From: Arthrobacter sp. V1I7
GTDB lineage: Bacteria > Actinomycetota > Actinomycetes > Actinomycetales > Micrococcaceae
DNA: 64,000 nucleotides
Direction of reading: 5' to 3'
Assembly (NCBI RefSeq): GCF_030817015.1
Contig: NZ_JAUSYS010000001.1
Span: 744,001-808,000, forward strand
This document shows positions 53,224-64,000 of this stretch, one piece after another. Position 1 is the first letter of the stretch. Each line of letters begins with the position of its first letter. Position numbers and translations under genes: made by a program. The notes beneath the pieces were generated by a model. It saw only the letters and a program-made list of their open reading frames with translations. It ran no database searches and was not told the DNA's origin.

Positions 53224-54221
53224 GCCGGACGCCTCCGAGCCCCGAAAGCAGCGAACTTCTGACCCAGGAGCCGATCCCCGCCCAGGAACTGATCTATGGG
53301 TGCATGGGGCTCGGCGGCAGCTGGTCGGCGGAGACGTACTCGTCCGTGGACGTGGACGAGGCGGCTGCCGCCGTCGACGCCGCCCTCAAGGCCGGGATCA
53401 CGCTGTTCGACCATGCCGACATCTACCGCAATGGCAAGGCCGAGGCGGTCTTCGGTGAGGTGCTGGCCCGGACGCCGGGGCTGCGGGACCGCATCCGGCT
53501 GCAGACCAAGTGCGGTATCCGGCTCAACGAGCAGGGCCTGGAGACGCACTACGACCTGAGCCGGGACGCCATCCTGGCGCGGACCAACGAAGGCCTCGCC
53601 CGGCTCCGCACGGACTACGTGGATGTGCTGATGCTGCACCGGCCGGATCCCCTGATGGACCCGGCCGAGGTGGCCTCCGCCGTCGGGCAGCTGATCGCCG
53701 AAGGCAAGGTCCGCGCCGTGGGCGTGTCCAACATGTCCGGGCCGCAGATCGACGTGCTGCAGGACCGGCTGGAGACCCCGGTGGTGGCAAACCAGCTCGA
53801 GATGAGCCTGCTGAAGCGGGCCTGGCTGGAAAGCACGGTGCTGGTCAACCACGCCGAGGGAACGGACTACAGCTTCCCGCACGGCACGGTGGAGCACTGC
53901 GTCCGGCACGGGATCACCCTGCAGGCCTATGGGGCGCTGGCGCGGGGCCTCTACACCGGGGCGCCGTCCGCGCGGCCGACGGTGGCGGAGGAAGCCACCA
54001 CCGCCCTCGTGGCGCAGCTGGCTCGGGAAAAGGACACGACGGTCGAGTCGATCCTGCTGGGATGGCTGATGAAACACCCGGCCGGGATAGCACCGGTGAT
54101 CGGGACGGCCAACCCGGAACGCATCCAGGCCTGCGCCGGCGCGGCGGAGGTCGCCGCCGGCATGAGCCGGGCCGAGTGGTACCGGCTCTGGGTCACCGCG
54201 CGGGGCAGTAACATCCCCTAG
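53220..54221 (+). CDS. Aldo/keto reductase
   Basis: A 333-residue AKR (TIM barrel). Catalytic tetrad: Asp and Tyr in LFDHADIYRNGKAE, Lys in LQTKCGIRL, His in VLMLHRPDP. The NADPH-binding C-terminal part includes VIGTANPERIQ. It resembles the YdhF-type subgroup. GTG at 53220 overlaps the glucosidase stop (GTGA), so it is translationally coupled and may reduce a sugar product. Confidence 0.88.
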   Translation: MSRTPPSPESSELLTQEPIPAQELIYGCMGLGGSWSAETYSSVDVDEAAAAVDAALKAGITLFDHADIYRNGKAEAVFGEVLARTPGLRDRIRLQTKCGIRLNEQGLETHYDLSRDAILARTNEGLARLRTDYVDVLMLHRPDPLMDPAEVASAVGQLIAEGKVRAVGVSNMSGPQIDVLQDRLETPVVANQLEMSLLKRAWLESTVLVNHAEGTDYSFPHGTVEHCVRHGITLQAYGALARGLYTGAPSARPTVAEEATTALVAQLAREKDTTVESILLGWLMKHPAGIAPVIGTANPERIQACAGAAEVAAGMSRAEWYRLWVTARGSNIP

Positions 54222-54289
54222 CCTGTGATTTTGGTCGTATGAACACCCCGCAGGGCAGGAATACTTAGCCGGATGGTACCCGGTGCGGA

Positions 54290-54295
54290 TAGCGT
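54290..54295 (+). promoter_or_regulatory. -10-like hexamer for leaderless lyase gene
   Basis: TAGCGT ends 6 nt before the ATG at 54302; no ribosome-binding site is present. Confidence 0.5.
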
Positions 54296-54301
54296 AGAGA
54301 C

Positions 54302-55165
54302 ATGACCTCTACGACCGCAGCCGGGACCATCCGGCCTCAACGCAATGTTCCAGCAGAAATCGCCCGTTCGTGGCTCCTGGTCAACGCGATGAAACCCGAG
54401 CTCTTCGACCAGTCCGCCGTCTCCCGCGCGGACGCCATCATCCTGGACATCGAGGATGCGGTGGATCCTTCCCAGAAGGACGCCGCCCGTGCCCACGTGG
54501 TGGACTGGCTCACCGGCGGCGGCGCCGCCTGGGTCCGGATCAACGACGCCACCAGCCCCTTCTGGGCCGATGACCTCGCCGGACTCCGCGGCACCCCGGG
54601 CCTGCTCGGCGTGATGCTCGCCAAGACCGAGTCCGCTGACCAGGTCACCGAAAGCTTCCACCGGATGGACGGCAAGACTCCGGTGATTCCGCTGGTCGAG
54701 TCCGCCGTCGGAATCGAGGAAGCCAACAAGATCGCCAAAGCCCAGGGCGCCTTCCGGCTCGCTTTCGGTTCCGGCGACTTCCGCCGCGACACCGGCATGG
54801 CCGCCACCCCCGAGGCCATGGCCTACCCGCGCGCCAAGCTCGTCGTCGCCAGCCGGGTCGGCAACCTGCCGGGTCCGATTGACGGCCCCACGGTCGGTAC
54901 CAACCACCCGATCCTGCGCGAGCAGACCGGCATCACCGTCACGATGGGCATGACCGGCAAGCTGTGCCTCGCCATCGACCAGACCCACGTCATCAACGAG
55001 GTCATCAGCCCGACGCCCTCCGATGTCGCCTGGGCCACCGACTTCATGGCCGACTTCGAGGCCAACGGCCGCGTCATCCGTGACGGCTCCGACCTGCCCC
55101 GCCTGGGCCGCGCCGAAAAGATCATGCGGCTCGCGGTAGCCTTTGGGGTGCAGCCGGCCCTGTAG
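54302..55165 (+). CDS. CitE-like HpcH/HpaI aldolase/CoA-ester lyase
   Basis: A 287-residue TIM-barrel enzyme of the CitE/malyl-CoA-lyase-like family: SWLLVNAMKPELF (Arg of the CoA site partly changed), ADAIILDIEDAVDPSQK with the Glu/Asp Mg ligands, PVIPLVESAVGIEEAN and RLAFGSGDFRRDTGM. It probably cleaves a 3-hydroxyacyl-CoA to acetyl-CoA or glyoxylate-like products; the usual neighbours (CitD/CitF) are absent, so it is not a citrate-lyase subunit. Its terminator is at 55185. Confidence 0.85.
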   Translation: MTSTTAAGTIRPQRNVPAEIARSWLLVNAMKPELFDQSAVSRADAIILDIEDAVDPSQKDAARAHVVDWLTGGGAAWVRINDATSPFWADDLAGLRGTPGLLGVMLAKTESADQVTESFHRMDGKTPVIPLVESAVGIEEANKIAKAQGAFRLAFGSGDFRRDTGMAATPEAMAYPRAKLVVASRVGNLPGPIDGPTVGTNHPILREQTGITVTMGMTGKLCLAIDQTHVINEVISPTPSDVAWATDFMADFEANGRVIRDGSDLPRLGRAEKIMRLAVAFGVQPAL

Positions 55166-55184
55166 CCGCCCGCACCAGACACGC

Positions 55185-55227
55185 GACCCCGTGGCCGATA
55201 CCCGTTATCTGGTCCACGGGGTCTTTT
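55185..55227 (+). terminator. Terminator of the CitE-like gene
   Basis: GACCCCGTGG (55185-55194) pairs with CCACGGGGTC (55214-55223) around a 19-nt loop that contains a short GATA/TATC stem; TTTT follows. Confidence 0.85.
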
Positions 55228-55256
55228 GGTATGTGACGGCGCCTCCCTCGTCATTT

Positions 55257-55287
55257 TTGAAAGATGAGTTAGGTTAGCCTAAACTTC
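55257..55287 (+). promoter_or_regulatory. Promoter with DtxR/IdeR iron box
   Basis: TTGAAA (55257-55262), 17 bp, TAAACT (55280-55285) form a plausible promoter. Overlapping the spacer and -10 is TTAGGTTAGCCTAAACTTC (55269-55287), which matches the DtxR/IdeR consensus at 16 of 19 positions, the mismatches being at positions 15, 18 and 19. It lies 66-84 nt before the first gene of an ABC-transporter operon, so that operon should be repressed by iron. Confidence 0.85.
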
Positions 55288-55352
55288 CTTTGGCCCTTCG
55301 GTCCTGTTACTCCCGTCTGCCGCGTCCGCAGACACTAAATCTAGGTGGTTCC

Positions 55353-56894
55353 GTGCGCTTTTCCCTTCCCTCATCTCTGTCCCTGGGGCTCGTGGCGCTC
55401 ATATCACTGTCGGGTTGTGGCTTCAGCGGCTCCTCCGCAGGAGCCACGCAGGCCGCCAAGGCTGACCAGCGGATCGTCGTCGACAATTTCCGGGCTCCGG
55501 TGGCGAACTGGGCGCTGGAGAGCGATGCTGCCTACATTCTGTCCCTGTCCGGCTGCCTCGAGACCCTGACCCGCTACGATGAGGCGCAGGGGAAAATCGT
55601 GCCGTTGCTGGCAACGGAGTGGAAGCAGGTCTCGCCCCTGGAGTGGGACTTCACCATCCGCGGAGGAGTCAAGTTCCAGGACGGGAGCGCGCTCAGCGCT
55701 GATGCCGTGGCCGGTTCCTTGCAGAAAGTCCTTGCAGCAGCGGTTCCGGCTCGGGCCTTCAATCCCAAGGTGGTCACTGGGGTCAAAGCGGTCGACGATC
55801 GCACAGTACGGGTTAGCACCCCGACTGAGAGCCCGTTGGTTCCGTACCGCCTCGCGAGCGTCAACACCGGCATTCTGGCCCCGGCAGCGTTCAAGGGCGA
55901 TACGGTGGATCCGTTCGGGCACTGCACCGGACCCTTCGAGCCAGTATCTGAAAAGCCGAAGCAATCCTTGACGCTGGACCGCAATGAGGCTTACTGGGGC
56001 GGCGAGGTGCAGTTGGCCGGGGCAGAGGTCCGGTTCATCACGGACGGGGCGACCCGCGCTGCACAGGTTCAGACCGGCGAAGCGGATGTGTCCCTCTCCA
56101 TCCCGGTTTCCGGCCTGCCCGGCTTGGAATCAGATGCCAGCGTCAAGGTTCTCAAGTCAGATTCTCCGAGGACCGCGACGCTTTACATGAACAACGGCCG
56201 GGCGCCGTTCGACGACGTCGACTTCCGGAAGGCGGTCCGTTCGGCGCTGGATCTGGACGCCCTTGCCGCCAGCGTCTACGAAGGTGCGGCCGTCGCCGCG
56301 AGTGGGCCGTTCGCGCCATCGGAGCCCTGGGCCGTAAAGGGATCCGTGACACCCAAGCAGGACCTGGAGGGTGCACGGAAGCTGCTTGCCACCGCCGGAT
56401 ACACCGCTGACCGCCCGCTGGAGGTCATCGCAATCGTTGAACGGGCGGAGTTCGCGGATGTGGCCACCGTCATCCAGGAGGACCTGAAGGCGGTGGGCAT
56501 TCCGGTGAAGATCCAGACCAAGGAATATGCCGCAGCGGAGCCCGACCTGCTGGCAGGCAATTACGACATGGTGCTGAGTCAGCGCAACCGCCTGATCGAC
56601 ATCGCCGACCCCATCGGATTCCTGACGGCGGACTATACCTGTGACGGCACCTACAACCTCAGTCACTTCTGCAACAAGGACTACGACGCAACGATCGCCA
56701 AGGCAGCCACAACAGCGGACGCGGACGAGCGCTACCGCTTGTACGCCGAAGCCGGGCAGATCCTGCAGGAGCAGGCCGTGAACGTCTGGCTCGTGAACGA
56801 GCAGGCCATTGACGCCGTCCGTGCCGATCTTCAGGCCCACGTCCAGGACCCCCTGTCCCGCTATGTGGTCAGGGCGGAAACGGCGAAACCCTGA
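55353..56894 (+). CDS. Oligopeptide/nickel-type substrate-binding lipoprotein (SBP_bac_5)
   Basis: A 513-residue extracytoplasmic lipoprotein. The signal peptide ends in the lipobox LSGC. The SBP_bac_5 fold follows (IVPLLATEWKQVSPLEWDFTIRGGVKFQDGSALSADAV; the late region TADYTCDGTYNLSHFCNKDYDATI). Members bind peptides, nickel or metallophores. Two Cys in the binding region (TC...HFC) could form a disulfide. GTG at 55353 has AGGTGG upstream. It is the first gene of a five-gene iron-box operon, so an iron-chelate ligand is likely. It is not the FecB/FhuD type normally found in siderophore uptake. Confidence 0.88.
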   Translation: MRFSLPSSLSLGLVALISLSGCGFSGSSAGATQAAKADQRIVVDNFRAPVANWALESDAAYILSLSGCLETLTRYDEAQGKIVPLLATEWKQVSPLEWDFTIRGGVKFQDGSALSADAVAGSLQKVLAAAVPARAFNPKVVTGVKAVDDRTVRVSTPTESPLVPYRLASVNTGILAPAAFKGDTVDPFGHCTGPFEPVSEKPKQSLTLDRNEAYWGGEVQLAGAEVRFITDGATRAAQVQTGEADVSLSIPVSGLPGLESDASVKVLKSDSPRTATLYMNNGRAPFDDVDFRKAVRSALDLDALAASVYEGAAVAASGPFAPSEPWAVKGSVTPKQDLEGARKLLATAGYTADRPLEVIAIVERAEFADVATVIQEDLKAVGIPVKIQTKEYAAAEPDLLAGNYDMVLSQRNRLIDIADPIGFLTADYTCDGTYNLSHFCNKDYDATIAKAATTADADERYRLYAEAGQILQEQAVNVWLVNEQAIDAVRADLQAHVQDPLSRYVVRAETAKP

Positions 56895-56946
56895 TCCTGA
56901 CCGTGACCGTCCGCATACAACAACGAGACGAACGGCGTCCGCAGTG

Positions 56947-57885
56947 ATGCCATTCCTCGCCCGGCGAACGGCTGCCCTGGTGGCAGCCGTTCTTCTGGCC
57001 TCCTTTACGGTCTTCCTCATCCCCTACATGACCCCGGGGGACACCGTGCGGAAGATCATCCGCTCCCGTGTGGCCGGCGAAGTCATCGACGACTCCGCCG
57101 TGGAGGCGTTGAGTCTCCAACTCGGCCTCAACGACCCACTGTGGGCGCAGTACCTGCGCTGGCTGGGGCGGCTGCTCACCGGCGATATGGGCTTGTCCTA
57201 CACCAGCCGAACCCCGGTGGCCGATCAGGTGCTGCCGGCGCTCTGGATTACGCTGAGCCTGGTAGTCCTGGCCCTCGGCACAGCGGGCGCCCTTTCCGTG
57301 GTCCTCGGCGTCACGGCTGCCCTGCAGGAGGGACGGCCCGCCGACAAGGTGATCACGGCGGTCACCCAGGCGTTCATCGCCGTTCCGGAGTACTGGCTGG
57401 CGCCGCTGCTGGTATTGGCCTTCGCGCTGCAACTGTCCGCGCTGCCCTCGGCCGGATGGGAAGGACCCCAATCAGCGGTTCTGCCCGTGGCCGTCCTCGC
57501 CCTGCGGCCCACGAGCTACTTCACGTCGGCGGTGCGGGAGGGAATTCTCGAGGCGCTCGGCGCGGAGCATGTCGTCGCCGCCCGAAGCAGGGGCGTCTCC
57601 CATCTGCAAACCGTTGCGAAGCACGTGATTCCCAACGGCCTGCTGCCGCTCACCACGTTGGTGGCGGTGTGGTTCGCGGGGCTGCTGGGCGGATCCGTCA
57701 TCGTCGAGGTCATTTTCGCGATCCCCGGCATGGGACGGTTACTGTTCGACGGCGTCCTGAACAGCGACATTCCCCTGGCGCAGGGAGCCGTGGTGGTCGT
57801 CGTCGGGCTGGCCGTCGTGTTGACCACAGCTGCGGACCTGGTCCACGGGCTGCTGAACCCCCAAATCAGGATGAGCCATGCGTAA
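56947..57885 (+). CDS. ABC transporter permease, DppB/OppB type
   Basis: A 312-residue permease with six hydrophobic segments. N-terminal FLARRTAALVAAVLLASFTVFLIPYMTPGD and the QLGLNDPLWAQYLRWLGRLLTGDMG loop are DppB signatures; the EAA loop is YFTSAVREGILEALGAEHVVAARSRG. A GTG directly before the ATG is a possible start. It overlaps the next permease by 8 bp. Confidence 0.9.
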   Translation: MPFLARRTAALVAAVLLASFTVFLIPYMTPGDTVRKIIRSRVAGEVIDDSAVEALSLQLGLNDPLWAQYLRWLGRLLTGDMGLSYTSRTPVADQVLPALWITLSLVVLALGTAGALSVVLGVTAALQEGRPADKVITAVTQAFIAVPEYWLAPLLVLAFALQLSALPSAGWEGPQSAVLPVAVLALRPTSYFTSAVREGILEALGAEHVVAARSRGVSHLQTVAKHVIPNGLLPLTTLVAVWFAGLLGGSVIVEVIFAIPGMGRLLFDGVLNSDIPLAQGAVVVVVGLAVVLTTAADLVHGLLNPQIRMSHA

Positions 57886-58723
57886 ACTGCCGCCGACCAT
57901 CCTGGCCGCCGGATCCATTCTGGTTCTTATCGTGACGTCCGTGGCCCTGTCTGCCTGGCTAGCGCCCTACCCGCCCGCTGACCAGGACCTGGCCGCCAGG
58001 CTCGCCGCACCCAGCGCCGCCCACTGGCTGGGCACGGACAATCTGGGCCGGGACACCCTGAGCAGGCTGCTCGACGGCGGCCAGTTCTCTTTGACAATAG
58101 CCGCCCTGGCCACGGTACTGACAGCCGTAACGGGTACCGCGGTGGGTGTGCTCAGCGCCCGGCGGCGCGGCTGGCTGGACGAGTTCTTCACCCGCACCAA
58201 TGACGTGCTGTTGGCCATGCCTGAAATGGTGGTGGCCCTCTTCCTGGTGGCCGCCATGGGCACCGGCTACCACTCCCTGCTGCTCGCCCTGACGGTGACC
58301 GGCTGGACTCCGTTTGCCCGCCTGGCCCGCTCGCTCGCCTATGACGTTTCGGCGCGGGGCTTCATCGAGGCAGCCCACGTGGTGGGCTGCCCGCCCTCCT
58401 TCATCGTCCTGCGGCACATCCTGCCCCACCTGGCCGGGCCGCTGCTGGGACAGGCCACTCTTCGGTTCGGGCAGTTCCTCATCAACGTTGGCGCCCTCTC
58501 CTACCTGGGTCTGGGGGTGCAGCCGCCCCAGTCGGACTGGGGATCGATGCTGGCAACTGCCCAGCCGTACGCGGTCAGGGCGCCGATGACGATCCTGGTC
58601 CCCGGGCTGGTGATCTTCGTCGTCGCGCTTTGCGTCACCTTGATCGGGCAGTACGTGTCGCGCATGACCGGAAGCCGCCTGCTGCTGGCCTCAGCTCCCG
58701 TACGGGTGGCCGCGGATGTCTGA
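57878..58723 (+). CDS. ABC transporter permease, DppC/OppC type
   Basis: A 281-residue permease. HWLGTDNLGRDTLSRLLDGGQFSL is the DppC periplasmic motif; the EAA loop is ARSLAYDVSARGFIEAAHVVGC, and SYLGLGVQPPQSDWGSML closes the domain. Its start lies within the end of the DppB-like gene and its end overlaps the ATPase start by 8 bp, so the three are translationally coupled. Confidence 0.9.
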   Translation: MRKLPPTILAAGSILVLIVTSVALSAWLAPYPPADQDLAARLAAPSAAHWLGTDNLGRDTLSRLLDGGQFSLTIAALATVLTAVTGTAVGVLSARRRGWLDEFFTRTNDVLLAMPEMVVALFLVAAMGTGYHSLLLALTVTGWTPFARLARSLAYDVSARGFIEAAHVVGCPPSFIVLRHILPHLAGPLLGQATLRFGQFLINVGALSYLGLGVQPPQSDWGSMLATAQPYAVRAPMTILVPGLVIFVVALCVTLIGQYVSRMTGSRLLLASAPVRVAADV

Positions 58724-60359
58724 GGGACTGATCATCGAAGGGCTCCGCGTCGGCCAGCGGGCACGCCCGGGAGGACGCCCCACGTCTTTCCGCCAGGGTC
58801 CCGCCAAGGCGATCCTGTCCGACCTGGACCTCTCCGTGACGCCCGGGGAGTTTGTGGCCCTGGTGGGAACGTCGGGAAGCGGCAAGACGATGACCGCCCT
58901 CAGCGTCATGGGCCTGCTGCCGCCGGGGGTCCACATCGAGAATGGCTCGGTCCGGTTCGGCGGGACGGATCTGCGGGCGCTCGGCGAAGCGGAGCTCAAC
59001 CGTGTGCGCGGAGGCCGGATCGGGATGCTCTATCAGCAGCCCAAACGGATGTTCAACCCCCGGAAGACCATTGCCAACCATTTGGCCGAGCCGCTGAAGC
59101 TTCATCGCGGGCTCCGCGGGAGCAGTGCCAGGACGGAGGCGCTGGAGCTGTTGGCCGAAGCAGGGTTCGAGGATCCGGCCTGGTGCGCCCGGGCGTATCC
59201 GCACCAGCTGTCGGGAGGAATGGCCCAGCGGGCCATGTTCGCCCTCGCCATGGCGGGGCAGCCCGAACTGCTGCTCGCGGACGAGCCGACGTCGGCCCTG
59301 GACAAGGTGCTCGAGCGGCAGATCCTGGAGCTGATCGACCGGCAAAGGCGCGCCCGGGGACTGGGGGTCCTGTACATCACCCACGATCTCGCCACAGTGT
59401 CCGCCTTCGCCGACCGGGTAGTGGTTTTGGAGGCTGGCCGCGTCCAGGAGTCAGGGCCGGTCAGGCGAGTGCTGTGCACGCCTCGGACCACGTACACAAA
59501 AGAACTCCTCAGTGCCTCGGCCCTTCCTCCGGCCCCTGCTCCGGCCGCTGCCCCTTCCCGTCCGATTCTGGGCCTGCGCAATGTCACCAAGCGGTTCCCG
59601 TCCAACCGGCGCGGCGCCCGGCCGGCCGTGGATGACGTTTCGCTCGAGCTCCGCGAAGGCGAGATTCTCGGCATCCTGGGTCAATCAGGATCCGGCAAGA
59701 GCACCTTGGCGCGGCTGATCCTCGGACTCGAAACCCCTGACAGCGGAAGCATCACCCGGTTCCTCGGCGCTGCGGTCAACCGGGCAGGGGCTCCGGGCAA
59801 GGATTTCCAGCTCGTGTTCCAGGAACCGCACGATGTGTTCGACCCGCGCATGAAGCTTCGCACCAGCCTGGAAGCTCCATTGCGGCCACGGCGGGACTGC
59901 ACGGCTGAGGATCGCAGTGCGCGCATCCATCGGGTGGTCCGCGAGGTTGATCTCGACCCCGCGCTGCTGGACAGGTACCCCGGCCAGTGCTCGGGCGGGC
60001 AGCTCCAACGGCTCACAATCGCCAGGGCGCTGCTGCTGGAACCGGCGGTCTTGATCTGCGACGAAGCCACGTCCGCCCTGGACGCCGTAACCCAGCGCAC
60101 GGTCCTGGACCTGTTGCTGCGCCTGCACCGCGACCGCCAGCTTTCCCTGATCATGATCTCCCACGACATGAACGTGCTCCGGTACATGAGCCACCGGGTG
60201 GCCGTACTCTTCCAGGGCGCCGTCGTCGAAGTGGCGCCCAACGCCGAATTCTTCGCCGCTCCCCGGCACGGGCACAGCAAGCAACTCGTGGCAGCGGCAC
60301 TCCCCGTCCCCACGCCGGCCACCGGCGGCCAGCGGAGTGAACTGCTCGATGCCGTTTAG
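58716..60359 (+). CDS. Fused two-domain ABC ATPase (DppD-DppF type)
   Basis: A 547-residue protein with two ATPase domains. Domain 1: Walker A GTSGSGKT, signature HQLSGGMAQR, Walker B LLLADEPTSALD. Domain 2 (from about residue 290): Walker A GQSGSGKS, signature QCSGGQLQR, Walker B VLICDEATSALD. Both have the switch His (THDLA; SHDMN). Both active sites look complete, so one protein supplies both nucleotide-binding domains for the two permeases. The domains are joined by an Ala/Pro linker. Confidence 0.92.
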   Translation: MSEGLIIEGLRVGQRARPGGRPTSFRQGPAKAILSDLDLSVTPGEFVALVGTSGSGKTMTALSVMGLLPPGVHIENGSVRFGGTDLRALGEAELNRVRGGRIGMLYQQPKRMFNPRKTIANHLAEPLKLHRGLRGSSARTEALELLAEAGFEDPAWCARAYPHQLSGGMAQRAMFALAMAGQPELLLADEPTSALDKVLERQILELIDRQRRARGLGVLYITHDLATVSAFADRVVVLEAGRVQESGPVRRVLCTPRTTYTKELLSASALPPAPAPAAAPSRPILGLRNVTKRFPSNRRGARPAVDDVSLELREGEILGILGQSGSGKSTLARLILGLETPDSGSITRFLGAAVNRAGAPGKDFQLVFQEPHDVFDPRMKLRTSLEAPLRPRRDCTAEDRSARIHRVVREVDLDPALLDRYPGQCSGGQLQRLTIARALLLEPAVLICDEATSALDAVTQRTVLDLLLRLHRDRQLSLIMISHDMNVLRYMSHRVAVLFQGAVVEVAPNAEFFAAPRHGHSKQLVAAALPVPTPATGGQRSELLDAV

Positions 60360-61668
60360 TCGCCACCGGGGTGAAGCGGGGACCCTGCTCGGCGCCCAGC
60401 TCGTCTTCAACCTCGGCTTTTATGCAGTCATTCCCTTTCTTGCCGGCGCCATGGGCGACGATTATGGCCTGGACGCCGTCGCCGTCGGGCTTGTCCTGGG
60501 TGCCCGCACGTTCAGCCAGCAAGGGATGTTCCTGCTCGGTGGCCTCCTGTCAGACCGTTGGGGCGCCCGCCGGGCAATCCTGATAGGTTGCCTCGTCCGC
60601 ATCTCCGGCTACGCCGCGCTGGCGGCAGCATCGGATTTCAGCTTGTTCCTCCTCGGGGCGGTGCTCACCGGCGCCGGAGGGGCCCTGTTCTCGCCGGCTC
60701 TTGAGTCCCAGTTATCCCAAGCCGACCGCGCGACCGACGGCTCCGGCCCGGCCGGAGGGAAAAAGGGCCGGCGGTCTGTGTTCGTCTGGTTATCGGTCAC
60801 CGGGGAAATCGGTGCGCTGCTCGGACCGCTGCTGGGAGCCTCCCTGCTGGGCTGGGGATTCGATGCCGCGCTGGCCCTCGGCATGGGAATCTTCAGCGTC
60901 GTCACCGTTTCGCTCTGGTTCCGTCTCCCGGCCGATGCGTCCTGCAGGCCCCCAAGAGCAGTCGCCTCGGAGCCGGAAGTCCCACGCAACGGGCACCACG
61001 GGGCACTCGATTGTCTGAGGAACCGGCGCTTCGTCCTGTTCTGCGTGCTGGCCAGCACCAACATGCTGGCCTACAACCAGCTCTATTTCGCCGTTCCTCT
61101 TGAGCTTGGCCGTCGCGGTCTGGACGGCTCGTGGCTGGCGATGCTCTTCCTGCAGGCATCCGTCCTGACCCTGGTCCTGCAACTCCCGGTCTCGGCGATC
61201 GGCCATCGGCTGGGTCCCGGCCGGGCGTTGTCGGTTGGCTTCGTACTGCTCAGCGCCGCATTTATTGCAGCCGCGCTGACCTCTGAGCACGCCGGGTCGT
61301 CCGGAAACTCGATAGCCCCGATGGCGGCCACCATCGCCCTCCTGATCTTGGGCCATATGCTCCTCACCCCTACTATCCTGTCCGTGATCCCGAGATTCCT
61401 TCCTGGCGAAGGGCCAGCATCCGGGCGGGGTGCTTACTACGGACTGGCGGCGAGTTGCGGCGGTATCTCCGTGCTGGTCGGCAACGCAGTGATGGGGCAG
61501 TTGGTGGACCTCACCGATCGGCTCAACTGGTGGCCAGGCACCCCCTGGGTGCCGCCGGTCCTGCTCGCATTCCTGTCGGCGCTGGCGCTCCCTCGGGTGC
61601 TGCTAACGAAAGCCTCGCCCTCAAGCGTTTCGTCGCGGACGCTTCCGGCATCCACCGCGGAAGCATAG
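60349..61668 (+). CDS. MFS transporter of the iron-box operon
   Basis: A 439-residue 12-helix MFS protein of DHA1-like type (LVFNLGFYAVIPFLAGAMGDDYGLDAVAVGLVLGAR; GLLSDRWGARRAILIGCLVR carries motif A). The start lies inside the ATPase stop region (ATG 60349; GGAGTG about 11 nt upstream), so it is translated with the ABC genes. An Opp-type importer with an MFS protein recalls the staphylopine Cnt system, where CntE exports the metallophore; export here is inferred. No biosynthetic gene for a metallophore lies in the window. Confidence 0.82.
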   Translation: MPFSRHRGEAGTLLGAQLVFNLGFYAVIPFLAGAMGDDYGLDAVAVGLVLGARTFSQQGMFLLGGLLSDRWGARRAILIGCLVRISGYAALAAASDFSLFLLGAVLTGAGGALFSPALESQLSQADRATDGSGPAGGKKGRRSVFVWLSVTGEIGALLGPLLGASLLGWGFDAALALGMGIFSVVTVSLWFRLPADASCRPPRAVASEPEVPRNGHHGALDCLRNRRFVLFCVLASTNMLAYNQLYFAVPLELGRRGLDGSWLAMLFLQASVLTLVLQLPVSAIGHRLGPGRALSVGFVLLSAAFIAAALTSEHAGSSGNSIAPMAATIALLILGHMLLTPTILSVIPRFLPGEGPASGRGAYYGLAASCGGISVLVGNAVMGQLVDLTDRLNWWPGTPWVPPVLLAFLSALALPRVLLTKASPSSVSSRTLPASTAEA

Positions 61669-61795
61669 CCGACGGCGACGGGACCGAGCGGGCCGGGATC
61701 GGCAGCTCGCCGCCCAGACCCGTCAACTGCTGCCGGCTCCGGCCTCGACGGCTTCGCCGTGGTGGACGAGCGGTGGGCGCCGAATGCCCCTGTCC

Positions 61796-62407
61796 TCAGC
61801 GGGACAGTTTCTGGGTGTCCGGCTGCGGGTCGCCGATGTGGCCGGGTGCGTTGGCCGCCAGGACGCGCTCGACGAACGCGCCGTACTCCTCCATGTAGTG
61901 GCGGAGGAATGCGGCAGTGGATTCGTCCCTGATCTCGCCGTCGTTGCCGAACACATCGGGGTTGAACTTCACGTACGCCTCCGGGGCGTTGAGCTGGGGG
62001 GCGTCGAGGAAGCTCAGCACGGCGCGCATGGAGGACTGCATCACGGCGGTGCCGATGCTCCCGGGCGAGGCGCCGATGATGCCGGTGGGTTTGCGGGCGA
62101 ACGAGTTGGTGCCCCAAGGACGCGAGCCCCAGTCGATGGCGTTCTTCAACGCCCCCGGAATGGAGCGGTTGTATTCGGGCGACACGAAGAGGATGCCGTC
62201 GGAGGCTTCGACGGCGTCCTTTAGGGCTCGGCCTTCCGGCGGGAAATCGGCGTCATAGTCGTAGCTGTATAGCGGCAGGTCCTTGATGGGGATCTCCATG
62301 AATTCGAGATCCTCCGGTGCGAGCTTGATCAGGGCCCTGGACAGAGTCCTGTTGATGGAGCCGCTGGCCAGGCTTCCGACGAAATAGCCGATCTTGTACG
62401 TTGCCAT
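61796..62407 (-). CDS. NADPH-dependent FMN reductase
   Basis: A 203-residue flavodoxin-like flavoprotein. Motifs: YFVGSLASGSINRTLSRAL (phosphate site) and ILFVSPEYNRSIPGALKNAIDWGSRPWG (flavin/dimer motif typical of the SsuE/azoreductase-like NADPH-FMN reductases). It may reduce flavins, quinones or ferric chelates. AAGGAAC precedes the ATG. It converges with the MFS gene of the iron operon. Confidence 0.88.
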   Translation of the reverse strand: MATYKIGYFVGSLASGSINRTLSRALIKLAPEDLEFMEIPIKDLPLYSYDYDADFPPEGRALKDAVEASDGILFVSPEYNRSIPGALKNAIDWGSRPWGTNSFARKPTGIIGASPGSIGTAVMQSSMRAVLSFLDAPQLNAPEAYVKFNPDVFGNDGEIRDESTAAFLRHYMEEYGAFVERVLAANAPGHIGDPQPDTQKLSR

Positions 62408-62615
62408 GAGCTTGTTCCTTCCCAGGGCCGGAACTCCGGCCAGGTCGACGATGCGGGTGCTCCGGGCCGGGCGGAAGCCGGCCCACCCCCAAGTTCAACA
62501 CGGAGGACCCGCCAGAGACAGGCTTGCCGCAGATTTTCCAGCAGACCGGAGGGAATCGGAGCCGGGCAGAACGTCGCTGAAGACAGCCCGGCGGCTGGCG
62601 AGCTGCAGAACCGGT

Positions 62616-62643
62616 CGGGCCATAATAATCGGGCCATAATAAT
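62616..62643. repeat. 14-bp tandem duplication, A/T-rich
   Basis: CGGGCCATAATAAT occurs twice head to tail. On the minus strand it reads ATTATTATGGCCCG, about 210 nt upstream of the FMN reductase start, so it could be a paired operator. Confidence 0.75.
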
Positions 62644-62674
62644 AGGACCGGCGCGGCGGCATACGTCGGGTCAA

Positions 62675-62748
62675 CGGGATGTATTGCAGTTGGGTAGCGC
62701 ACCTGGACGGGGGGGGCAGGGCGGCAGGTTCAAGTCCTCCCATCTCGA
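62675..62748 (+). pseudogene. Decayed tRNA-Pro (GGG)
   Basis: CGGGATG at the 5' end pairs with CATCTCG at the 3' end (one G-U). D-region AGTTGGGTAGCGCACC and the T-loop GGTTCAAGTCC are recognisable. The anticodon arm has become CCTG-N11-CAGG with a run of eight G, so the 7-nt loop is lost, and the D- and T-stems are mismatched. It resembles actinobacterial tRNA-Pro(GGG) and is not expected to function. Confidence 0.6.
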
Positions 62749-62961
62749 CGGTGCGGGCCGGAAACGGCAGAGAACAACCTGGGTCAGTGCGCTGGCCGTG
62801 TTGGGCGCATACTCCGCGGAGTCATACCAATGACTCAGGTGGCCCGCACTTTTACCTGCCCGGCCGGTTTTCCTGGCGCTGAGATCCTTGGCAGCACTGG
62901 CGGGCCCAAGCGAGTCCATGCTGTGATGCCAGGACCTATGGCAGAATCCCTGCCGGCCACC

Positions 62962-64000
62962 TTACGTCGCCGCGGCGGGAGCGATGTTGTGGTTGAGGCG
63001 GAAGACATTCTCGGGGTCGTAGCGGGCCTTCACGGAGGCCAGCCGGTCGTAGTTCACTCCGTATGCTGCCCGCACGCGCTCCTGCTCCGTTCCACCAAGA
63101 TTGTTCACGTACACCGCTGCCTGGAGGTAGGGGCTCATCGCCTCGAAGCAGCGGCGCGTCCAAGCGATATTCCTGTCGGAGTCGGCCGTATCCTCCCACT
63201 GGGACACGATCAGGAAGTCGTAATGACGATCACGGTGGGCAAAAGCTGTGGCCCGCGGGTCCACCCGACTGGCCGCCCCGGTCATCTGCTGAAATCCGAT
63301 GCCCGTATAGGGTGACGGGCTCGTTGCTGCGAACTCCAGCAGTGCCTCGATGGCACCGTCGGTGATGTCCTTGAGATAGCTTGATTTCCAGTAATGCTGG
63401 CGCCCGGCGGGGGCACCAGCGTCGTGCGCGCGCTGGAACGCCAGATAGGGCAGAGGTCGAAATTCCCCCTCGACAGGCTTGCCGAAGTTCCGCAGCGGCT
63501 GGAGGGTGAGCTCTCCCTCATGGAGCGGGCCGCAGTAGCACGCTGCTATCGAGACGACGGGCCGCCCCTCTGCATCCCGGCCTACTGAGGCGCTGGTGGA
63601 CAGTTCATCGGGTGCACCGCTCGAAAATTCGTAGTAGAAGCGCAACGCTGCCCTGGCCTGCTCCGCCGGGAAGACCAGCCCGCCGGCGAGCACAGTGCTG
63701 ACCGGGTGGAGCTGGTAAGTCAGTGAGGTAACGACGCCGAAATTGCCCCCGCCCCCGCGCAAGGCCCAGTAGAGATCCTCGTGTTCGGCAGGGCTGGCCG
63801 TCAGGAAGTCCCCGTCTGCGGTAACGATATCGGCCGCGAGCACATTGTCGCAGGAGAGACCATATTTGCCGTTCAGCCAGCCCAGACCACCGCCGAGCGT
63901 AAGGCCGGCAATGCCAGTGACGGAGATTACTCCCAATGTGGTGGCCAACCCAAAGGCCTGGGTTTCATGGTCGAATTCACGGAGCAACAATCCCGTCTGT
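62962..64000 (-). CDS. FAD-linked oxidase of the BBE type, cut by right edge
   Basis: The C-terminal 340 or so residues of an FAD-binding_4/BBE (berberine-bridge-like) oxidoreductase. The FAD domain region TGIAGLTLGGGLGWLNGKYGLSCDN, DLYWALRGGGGNFGVVTSLTYQL and the C-terminal BBE motif RYDPENVFRLNHNI are visible. The N-terminal FAD motif with the covalent His lies beyond position 64000. Family members oxidise sugars, alcohols or secondary metabolites. The frame is open to the window edge. Confidence 0.87.
   Translation of the reverse strand, partial: QTGLLLREFDHETQAFGLATTLGVISVTGIAGLTLGGGLGWLNGKYGLSCDNVLAADIVTADGDFLTASPAEHEDLYWALRGGGGNFGVVTSLTYQLHPVSTVLAGGLVFPAEQARAALRFYYEFSSGAPDELSTSASVGRDAEGRPVVSIAACYCGPLHEGELTLQPLRNFGKPVEGEFRPLPYLAFQRAHDAGAPAGRQHYWKSSYLKDITDGAIEALLEFAATSPSPYTGIGFQQMTGAASRVDPRATAFAHRDRHYDFLIVSQWEDTADSDRNIAWTRRCFEAMSPYLQAAVYVNNLGGTEQERVRAAYGVNYDRLASVKARYDPENVFRLNHNIAPAAAT

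Follow-up and report, generated by a model that had tools for sequence, protein, structure and literature searches.

The operon and its products

The window analyzed here, a stretch of 64,000 nucleotides from Arthrobacter sp. V1I7, contains between positions 55257 and 61668 five genes, all on the + strand, for an Opp/Nik-type ABC importer (an SBP_bac_5 protein, two BPD_transp_1 permeases, and ABC ATPases) and a transporter of the major facilitator superfamily (MFS). The substrate-binding protein (SBP) at the head of the operon (55353..56894, GTG start) is a lipoprotein of 513 amino acids with a lipobox LSGC, as read from its sequence, and belongs to the NikA-like cluster (Pfam PF00496, 258 bits). 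Its likely ribosome-binding site, AGGTGG (55343..55348, + strand), is invariant across 12 aligned loci. Permease B (56947..57885, 312 amino acids, PF00528 and PF19300) and permease C (57878..58723, 281 amino acids, PF00528) are of the Dpp/Nik type, with 247 bits on the Opp2B model (cut-off 350) and 235 bits on Opp2C (cut-off 300). They are followed by a fused double ATPase of 547 amino acids with two ABC_tran stretches (58716..60359) and by the MFS protein (60349..61668, 439 amino acids, PF07690, 104 bits), for which a GTG start at 60337 is also possible. The five-gene operon and the gene families given in the initial annotation are thus confirmed by domain search, but its description of all five genes as translationally coupled is slightly too strong: three of the four junctions overlap (by 8, 8, and 11 bases), whereas SBP and permease B are separated by 52 bases if the ATG at 56947 is taken. 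A scan of positions 54000-64000 for RNA leaders with Rfam gives nothing at the gathering threshold.

On the NikA-like/Opp5A model the SBP scores 236 bits, below the curated cut-off of 600. Its predicted structure has a predicted local distance difference test (pLDDT) score of 91.7; an earlier model built from 23 sequences was poor (pLDDT 58) and was discarded. The solved structures nearest to it include, by their titles, members that bind Fe-EDTA (ethylenediaminetetraacetate) and Ni-amino-acid chelates, as well as nickel- and dipeptide-binding proteins.

Directly upstream of the operon, at 54302-55165, lies a gene for an HpcH/HpaI lyase. A protein with a similar start occurs in genome G006 (L166:16711-17592), a few kilobases from HAD hydrolase, kinase, and aminotransferase genes.

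Iron box and promoter

An iron box for DtxR/IdeR, TTAGGTTAGCCTAAACTTC, is present at 55269..55287, with three mismatches (16 of 19 bases) to TTAGGTTAGGCTAACCTAA, which we take to be the 19-bp DtxR/IdeR consensus and which served for the scan. It is the sole such site in the window (0.00 expected, from 100 shuffles), it is conserved in the 12-locus alignment, and it overlaps a sigma-70-like promoter, TTGAAA-17-TAAACT (55257..55285, + strand), a consensus match only, found once against a shuffle mean of 0.0. The whole 5.03-Mb genome contains three places with at most three mismatches to the consensus, and none with the reversed control pattern. The other two precede a Peripla_BP_2 gene adjoining FecCD permeases (L058) and an operon of SBP_bac_6, two-domain permease, and TOBE ATPase genes, the layout of ferric FbpABC (L057). 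The window, shuffle, and genome scans bear out the initial annotation, which had placed a 16/19 DtxR/IdeR box over the promoter, and the box supports its proposal of an iron-regulated Opp-type importer.

The box is also kept in orthologs. At -65 to -94 from the SBP gene, it occurs with at most five mismatches in all 36 loci with an SBP identity of at least 55% (the window, 21 loci of named species, and, of the 15 other carriers in the family, all except L038) and with at most three mismatches in 22 of them; the range in the named-species loci is two to five mismatches. No box is found at that spacing in the 23 loci with an SBP identity below 55%. Four further loci, two close (L038 and the Arthrobacter plasmid L168, both with the box) and two distant (neither with it), bring the totals to 38/38 and 0/25. 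The close loci contain one duplicate (L019 and L068 are on the same contig, leaving 37 distinct among 38) and two loci of one strain (L025 and L031), and some end at contig edges. Homologs were taken from the best 120 of 521 and the best 120 of 519, and 64 of the resulting 222 identifiers were aligned (A2, A4). Since the box is present in all close and in no distant loci, iron control seems to characterize the close clade, in which the named genera are Arthrobacter, Paenarthrobacter, Pseudarthrobacter, and Kocuria. With a near-consensus box at a promoter and its retention in orthologs, the operon very probably encodes an iron-repressed Opp/Nik-type importer. The importer is accessory, being found in 16 of the 149 genomes of the family (E <= 1e-100).

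These counts bear on a first alternative, that of an ordinary nickel or peptide importer carrying an iron box by chance. The closest NCBI models are indeed NikA/Opp, and nickel- and dipeptide-binding proteins stand among the nearest structures; but a box with at most five mismatches occurs in only 2 of 6943 control windows, and the linkage of this family to a catabolic gene set (see below) is hard to explain with bare nickel. We consider this alternative improbable. From NikA/SaNikA-type systems the operon differs by the low score of its SBP, by the iron box, by the MFS partner, and by the linkage to amine-oxidizing catabolism.

An Opp-type importer under DtxR control is already known in an actinobacterium. 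Corynebacterium diphtheriae DIP2162-2165 (ddpABCD/nikA2) has a predicted DtxR site upstream (PMC524172), and these genes are listed among those differentially expressed in a study of DtxR and iron (PMC13001254). The likeness is one of description, and that system differs in adjoining sidA/sidB (nonribosomal peptide synthetase [NRPS]/polyketide synthase genes, for putative metallophore synthesis), with no MFS gene mentioned in the portions of those sources that treat it. What would be new here is the ligand.

In Paenarthrobacter nitroguajacolicus (L031:9921-16854), a solo boxed SBP gene adjoins IS21-type genes and is followed by genes for a GntR regulator, an APH-type kinase, a class III aminotransferase, and a relative of the MFS protein. 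In G006 (L166), this pair of kinase and aminotransferase genes comes after a HAD gene.

Own siderophore or borrowed ligand

Searches of the whole genome of the window's bacterium reveal no IucA/IucC (NIS) synthetase and no NRPS condensation domain. Among the neighboring genes scanned (ten chosen proteins per scan; the nicotianamine synthase-like family PF03059 was not searched for), there is no gene for siderophore or metallophore synthesis, in line with the initial annotation, which had seen none here and had suggested a borrowed metallophore. The family of Lys/Orn monooxygenases gives six matches over a low cut-off in this genome, the best at 39 bits and each covering less than 130 of 339 positions; matches over the same cut-off occur in 12 of 14 control genomes as well, and we read the six as generic flavoproteins. 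The genome also contains three FecCD pairs and one weak match. Without a NIS synthetase or a condensation domain, the bacterium most likely borrows the ligand of its importer. A self-made siderophore, produced by a pathway outside the models used, would find some ground in the IucA/IucC synthetases encoded by 14 of the 16 importer carriers, but the window's own genome (G000) is, with G030, one of the two exceptions, and in view of the negative searches this origin appears very unlikely. It follows from the same count that, for most carriers, piracy would not be the sole route to iron.

The initial annotation had favored a ligand of the staphylopine type. Staphylopine resembles nicotianamine. 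The combination of an Opp-type ABC importer with an MFS protein for an aminocarboxylate metallophore is that of CntABCDF-CntE in Staphylococcus aureus, and Paenibacillus opine clusters share the layout, which speaks for a staphylopine- or bacillopaline-type importer with a CntE-like exporter. However, a search for opine dehydrogenases finds no Staph_opine_DH over the cut-off in any of 396 genomes of the phylum, the own genome included (a single match lies below the cut-off, outside the own genome), and the SBP scores 83.2 bits on the CntA model, far under its cut-off of 800 (vs. 236 bits on the NikA-like model). Moreover, the Cnt and related opine systems are described as zincophore systems in what PMC7438024 says of them, whereas the operon of the window has an iron box. 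CntM homologs are reported there in some Actinobacteria, and so are scarce in the phylum but not lacking from it. A staphylopine-type metallophore is accordingly not supported, the chance of an opine importer being slight; the neighborhoods now point instead to nicotianamine-like ligands, which the initial annotation had also listed.

The MFS partner

Of the 36 close loci, 16 have a complete MFS gene with the importer; L014 has in addition a fragment, and L031 a relative at 36%. The gene follows the ATPase in the window, L017, L018, L021, L032, L064, L065, and L067. In a second clade, all eight loci (L059-L063 and L070-L072) instead have the MFS gene upstream of the SBP gene, with a product 42%-47% identical, and among ten loci picked by a distant SBP match (L100-L109) a homolog is nearby in seven. 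Outside the own genome there are 16 MFS matches, ten of which were taken as new regions, with two more (G137 and G286) covered. Homologs of the partner pointed out in the initial annotation thus accompany this importer in further genera, and the partnership of importer and MFS protein looks real and old. No MFS match is found in the catabolic-type loci L100, L146, L148, L149, L151, L169, and L170.

An assignment of the MFS protein to a known exporter was rejected: it is only distantly related to MdtH (90 bits, cut-off 469), and no solved relative is present in the PDB at E <= 0.001. Counted over the 36 close loci, an MFS gene (with the fragment and the 36% relative) is found in 18, a HAD gene (with L066/L165) in nine, neither in nine, and both in none. 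We do not retain "either export or digest" as a rule, and see only a hint of it, because the loci are related, some are cut by contig ends, and MFS and HAD genes coexist in the window's genome, as do a HAD gene and an MFS relative within one locus of G006 (L111).

A sister system is carried by a plasmid of Streptomyces sp. SGAir0924 (L150, 6549-14808), with an SBP 37% identical, a fused permease, and ATPases. It adjoins genes for a Fur-family regulator, a CobW-type GTPase, and L32, and looks to be under zinc control. An extension of zinc control to the wider sister family (fused permease with MFS) was dropped, because the Fur-family and L32 genes occur beside L150 only and the CobW matches in L115 and L118 are weak. 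In an Arthrobacter-genus genome (G106, L110:14072-17084), a sister SBP-MFS system is followed by an ECF-type transporter (ABC_cobalt-family protein, ATPase, and CbiQ).

A catabolic gene set beside the importers of relatives

In two loci (L026 and L028), the boxed operon is immediately preceded by five genes of the same orientation, with no further gene called in between. The five encode a HAD hydrolase, a DAO-family FAD oxidase, an aldehyde dehydrogenase (ALDH), a tartrate dehydrogenase (520 bits, cut-off 470), and a 2-hydroxyacid dehydrogenase. The same five are upstream, again in the orientation of the operon, in L025, with one alcohol dehydrogenase gene between them and the boxed SBP operon, and on the Arthrobacter plasmid L168, with one ALDH-like gene between. 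In G006 (L165), the five are downstream from the importer and convergent with it. The HAD and 2-hydroxyacid dehydrogenase genes are kept in L027, L029, and L034, and the HAD gene in L030 and L069.

The linkage extends beyond the Paenarthrobacter-type strains to a Rhodococcus plasmid and some rhizobia (nine of the 530 plasmid records with an SBP match were examined, and two of the 333 with a HAD match). On pROB01 of Rhodococcus opacus (L146), a gene for an SBP ∼50% identical is followed by HAD, DAO, permease, GntR, ATPase, and aldehyde dehydrogenase genes, with aminotransferase and succinate-semialdehyde dehydrogenase (SSADH) genes upstream on the opposite strand and an aspartate ammonia-lyase gene downstream. 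In G232 (L100, SBP also ∼50%), HAD, DAO, ALDH, aminotransferase, SSADH, and GntR genes stand beside the importer, without the lyase. On plasmids of Phyllobacterium and Microvirga, HAD, DAO, and importer genes share one stretch, and distant versions occur in Aminobacter. A Variovorax cluster has related HADs, an aminotransferase, a kinase, a FAD oxidase, an ALDH, and a fur gene, with no importer of this family.

The genome of the window's bacterium has its own island at ∼2.394-2.415 Mb. Its proteins match the set at 91% (HAD), 93% (DAO), 79% (aldehyde dehydrogenase), 83% (tartrate dehydrogenase), and 76% (2-hydroxyacid dehydrogenase). It also holds an aspartase/fumarase-type lyase, a second HAD (80%), and, in a divergent part, an SBP_bac_3 importer, a second DAO, a class III aminotransferase, an SSADH (50% identical to that of Rhodococcus), and an FCD-GntR regulator. 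Near the second HAD (L163:10471-10699, genome position ∼2,395,500), a 4-mismatch iron box just precedes an open reading frame of 63 codons; its start is lipoprotein-like and similar to the SBP's, and it may be the remnant of another boxed SBP gene.

On pSymA of Sinorhizobium meliloti (L171), a related HAD, a two-piece DAO, an SSADH, a tartrate dehydrogenase, and an aminotransferase form a cluster that adjoins a different Opp-type importer. Sinorhizobium plasmid records with a HAD match number 73.

Identity of the HAD protein

The HADs of L026 and Rhodococcus have L-azetidine-2-carboxylate hydrolase as their best solved match (E of 3e-23 and 4e-23, respectively), an enzyme that had been suspected beforehand. 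With a profile of 13 HAD sequences, the structures of that hydrolase (3smv/8ywo/9v14) again come best (154 bits), followed by 8hp5 (142 bits), and the L-2-haloacid dehalogenase 1jud reaches 77 bits. The entry 8hp5 is labeled a haloacid dehalogenase, and a segment of it is 56% identical to azetidine-2-carboxylate hydrolase. The closest solved relative of the linked HAD is thus the hydrolase, not a dehalogenase, and the importer family is linked to a homolog of that hydrolase (a test set by ourselves for want of a defined family). The HAD occurs, at E <= 1e-30, in 3 of the 149 family genomes, in three genera and all within the 16 importer carriers (hypergeometric probability 0.001, ignoring relatedness); the window's own genome is one of the three.

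The best solved relatives of the linked HADs, the hydrolases of Pseudomonas sp. A2C and Aspergillus nidulans (AzhA), differ in that their identity to these HADs is low, their substrate is free azetidine-2-carboxylate, and the relevant parts of PMC8016842 do not connect them with any iron importer. Hydrolysis leads, according to that source, to 2-hydroxy-4-aminobutyrate and a γ-aminobutyrate (GABA) route.

Proposed ligand and pathway

Nicotianamine and the mugineic acids consist of three C4 units joined through amines, one of them closed to azetidine-2-carboxylate. Because the importer family is repeatedly linked to a catabolic set with a HAD resembling azetidine-2-carboxylate hydrolase, we propose, with a probability of about one half, that the importer takes up ferric complexes of a plant-made chelator of this class, nicotianamine or a mugineic acid. 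Nicotianamine is named as a product of azetidine-2-carboxylate in PMC11794875.

At low iron, the repression of the operon by DtxR/IdeR would be lifted, the lipoprotein would bind the Fe-chelate made by roots, and the ABC complex would import it. After removal of the iron inside the cell, the MFS protein would re-export the stripped ligand, or strains with the catabolic set would digest it into its three C4 units. The FAD amine oxidases would release malic or aspartic semialdehyde, which aldehyde dehydrogenase would convert into malate and aspartate, with aspartase turning aspartate into fumarate. The HAD would open the azetidine ring to 4-amino-2-hydroxybutyrate, and the aminotransferase and semialdehyde dehydrogenase would carry the latter to malate, for the tartrate/D-malate dehydrogenase. 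Such a pathway would give a role to every enzyme of the set except the 2-hydroxyacid dehydrogenase. Replacement of the azetidine by proline is said to slow the microbial breakdown of such chelators (PMC12364333; PMC12723747), and slower breakdown is presented as a design aim in PMC7946895, where proline-deoxymugineic acid (PDMA) is described as biodegradable, but slowly.

Several observations weigh against a plant-made azetidine ligand. The importer and the island are unlinked in the window's own genome, some 1.59 Mb apart, and at E <= 1e-30 a HAD is missing from 13 of the 16 carriers. No close HAD is found near the importer on the plasmids of Agrobacterium (L147) or Sinorhizobium fredii (L170), and on the S. 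sojae plasmid (L169) the nearest HAD is just 27% identical and ∼9 kb from the importer. Apart from the 4-mismatch site of the own genome, no iron box with at most five mismatches precedes the catabolic operons of the scanned loci. The fold search with the SBP model does not single out a ligand. Azetidine hydrolysis by the linked HAD is suggested by a nearest relative of low identity, and the HADs of L026 and Rhodococcus also pass the NCBI model for haloacid dehalogenase type II. The short Lys/Orn monooxygenase matches leave some room for a hydroxamate route in the own genome. Legumes, the hosts of rhizobia, are not known to make mugineic acids, so that the rhizobial ligand would have to be nicotianamine. 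Finally, azetidine-containing products of bacteria exist (azetidomonamides and vioprolides; PMC11794875), and therefore an azetidine ligand need not come from plants.

The match to the dehalogenase model and the existence of bacterial azetidine products would suit an iron-regulated importer for another borrowed chelate (an amino-polycarboxylate of the ethylenediaminedisuccinate [EDDS]/iminodisuccinate type, citrate, a microbial siderophore, or a bacterial azetidine product), degraded by the catabolic genes, with the HAD acting perhaps on a different C-N or C-X bond. The Fe-EDTA- and Ni-amino-acid-chelate-binding members of the SBP family fit it too, as does the presence, within or close to the clusters, of an aspartase/fumarase-type lyase or an aspartate ammonia-lyase. 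Yet azetidine-2-carboxylate hydrolase receives double the score of dehalogenases with the HAD profile, and the aminotransferase/SSADH pair is as expected after azetidine opening; we regard this alternative as rather unlikely, but as the most serious one.

Significance

Beyond the plant-made azetidine ligand itself, a wider and more tentative picture is that of phytosiderophore piracy, which we hold possible but short of an even chance: the importer family would feed the catabolism of nicotianamine or mugineic acid elsewhere (in Rhodococcus and rhizobia), and would be under iron control in Micrococcaceae. The plant molecule would be both iron carrier and food where the catabolic set is present, and in strains that do not digest it, the MFS protein would return the stripped chelator to the root zone.

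The destruction by soil microbes of the iron chelators released by cereals is described as greatly limiting their use by crops (PMC12723747), and a study of 2021 states that the taxa and genes that metabolize phytosiderophores are unknown, while putting forward candidates in Pseudomonas fluorescens (a porin, a transporter, and an oxidoreductase; PMC7786132). Besides that study, none of the open-access matches listed names bacterial genes for phytosiderophore metabolism. If the proposal is true, the operon and the catabolic set would constitute a complete and, compared with the Pseudomonas candidates, quite different gene set, with its regulator and pathway, and would make it easier to predict what root bacteria compete for iron with plants. 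The importer is thus a testable candidate for the means by which root bacteria may steal and eat the iron chelators of plants.

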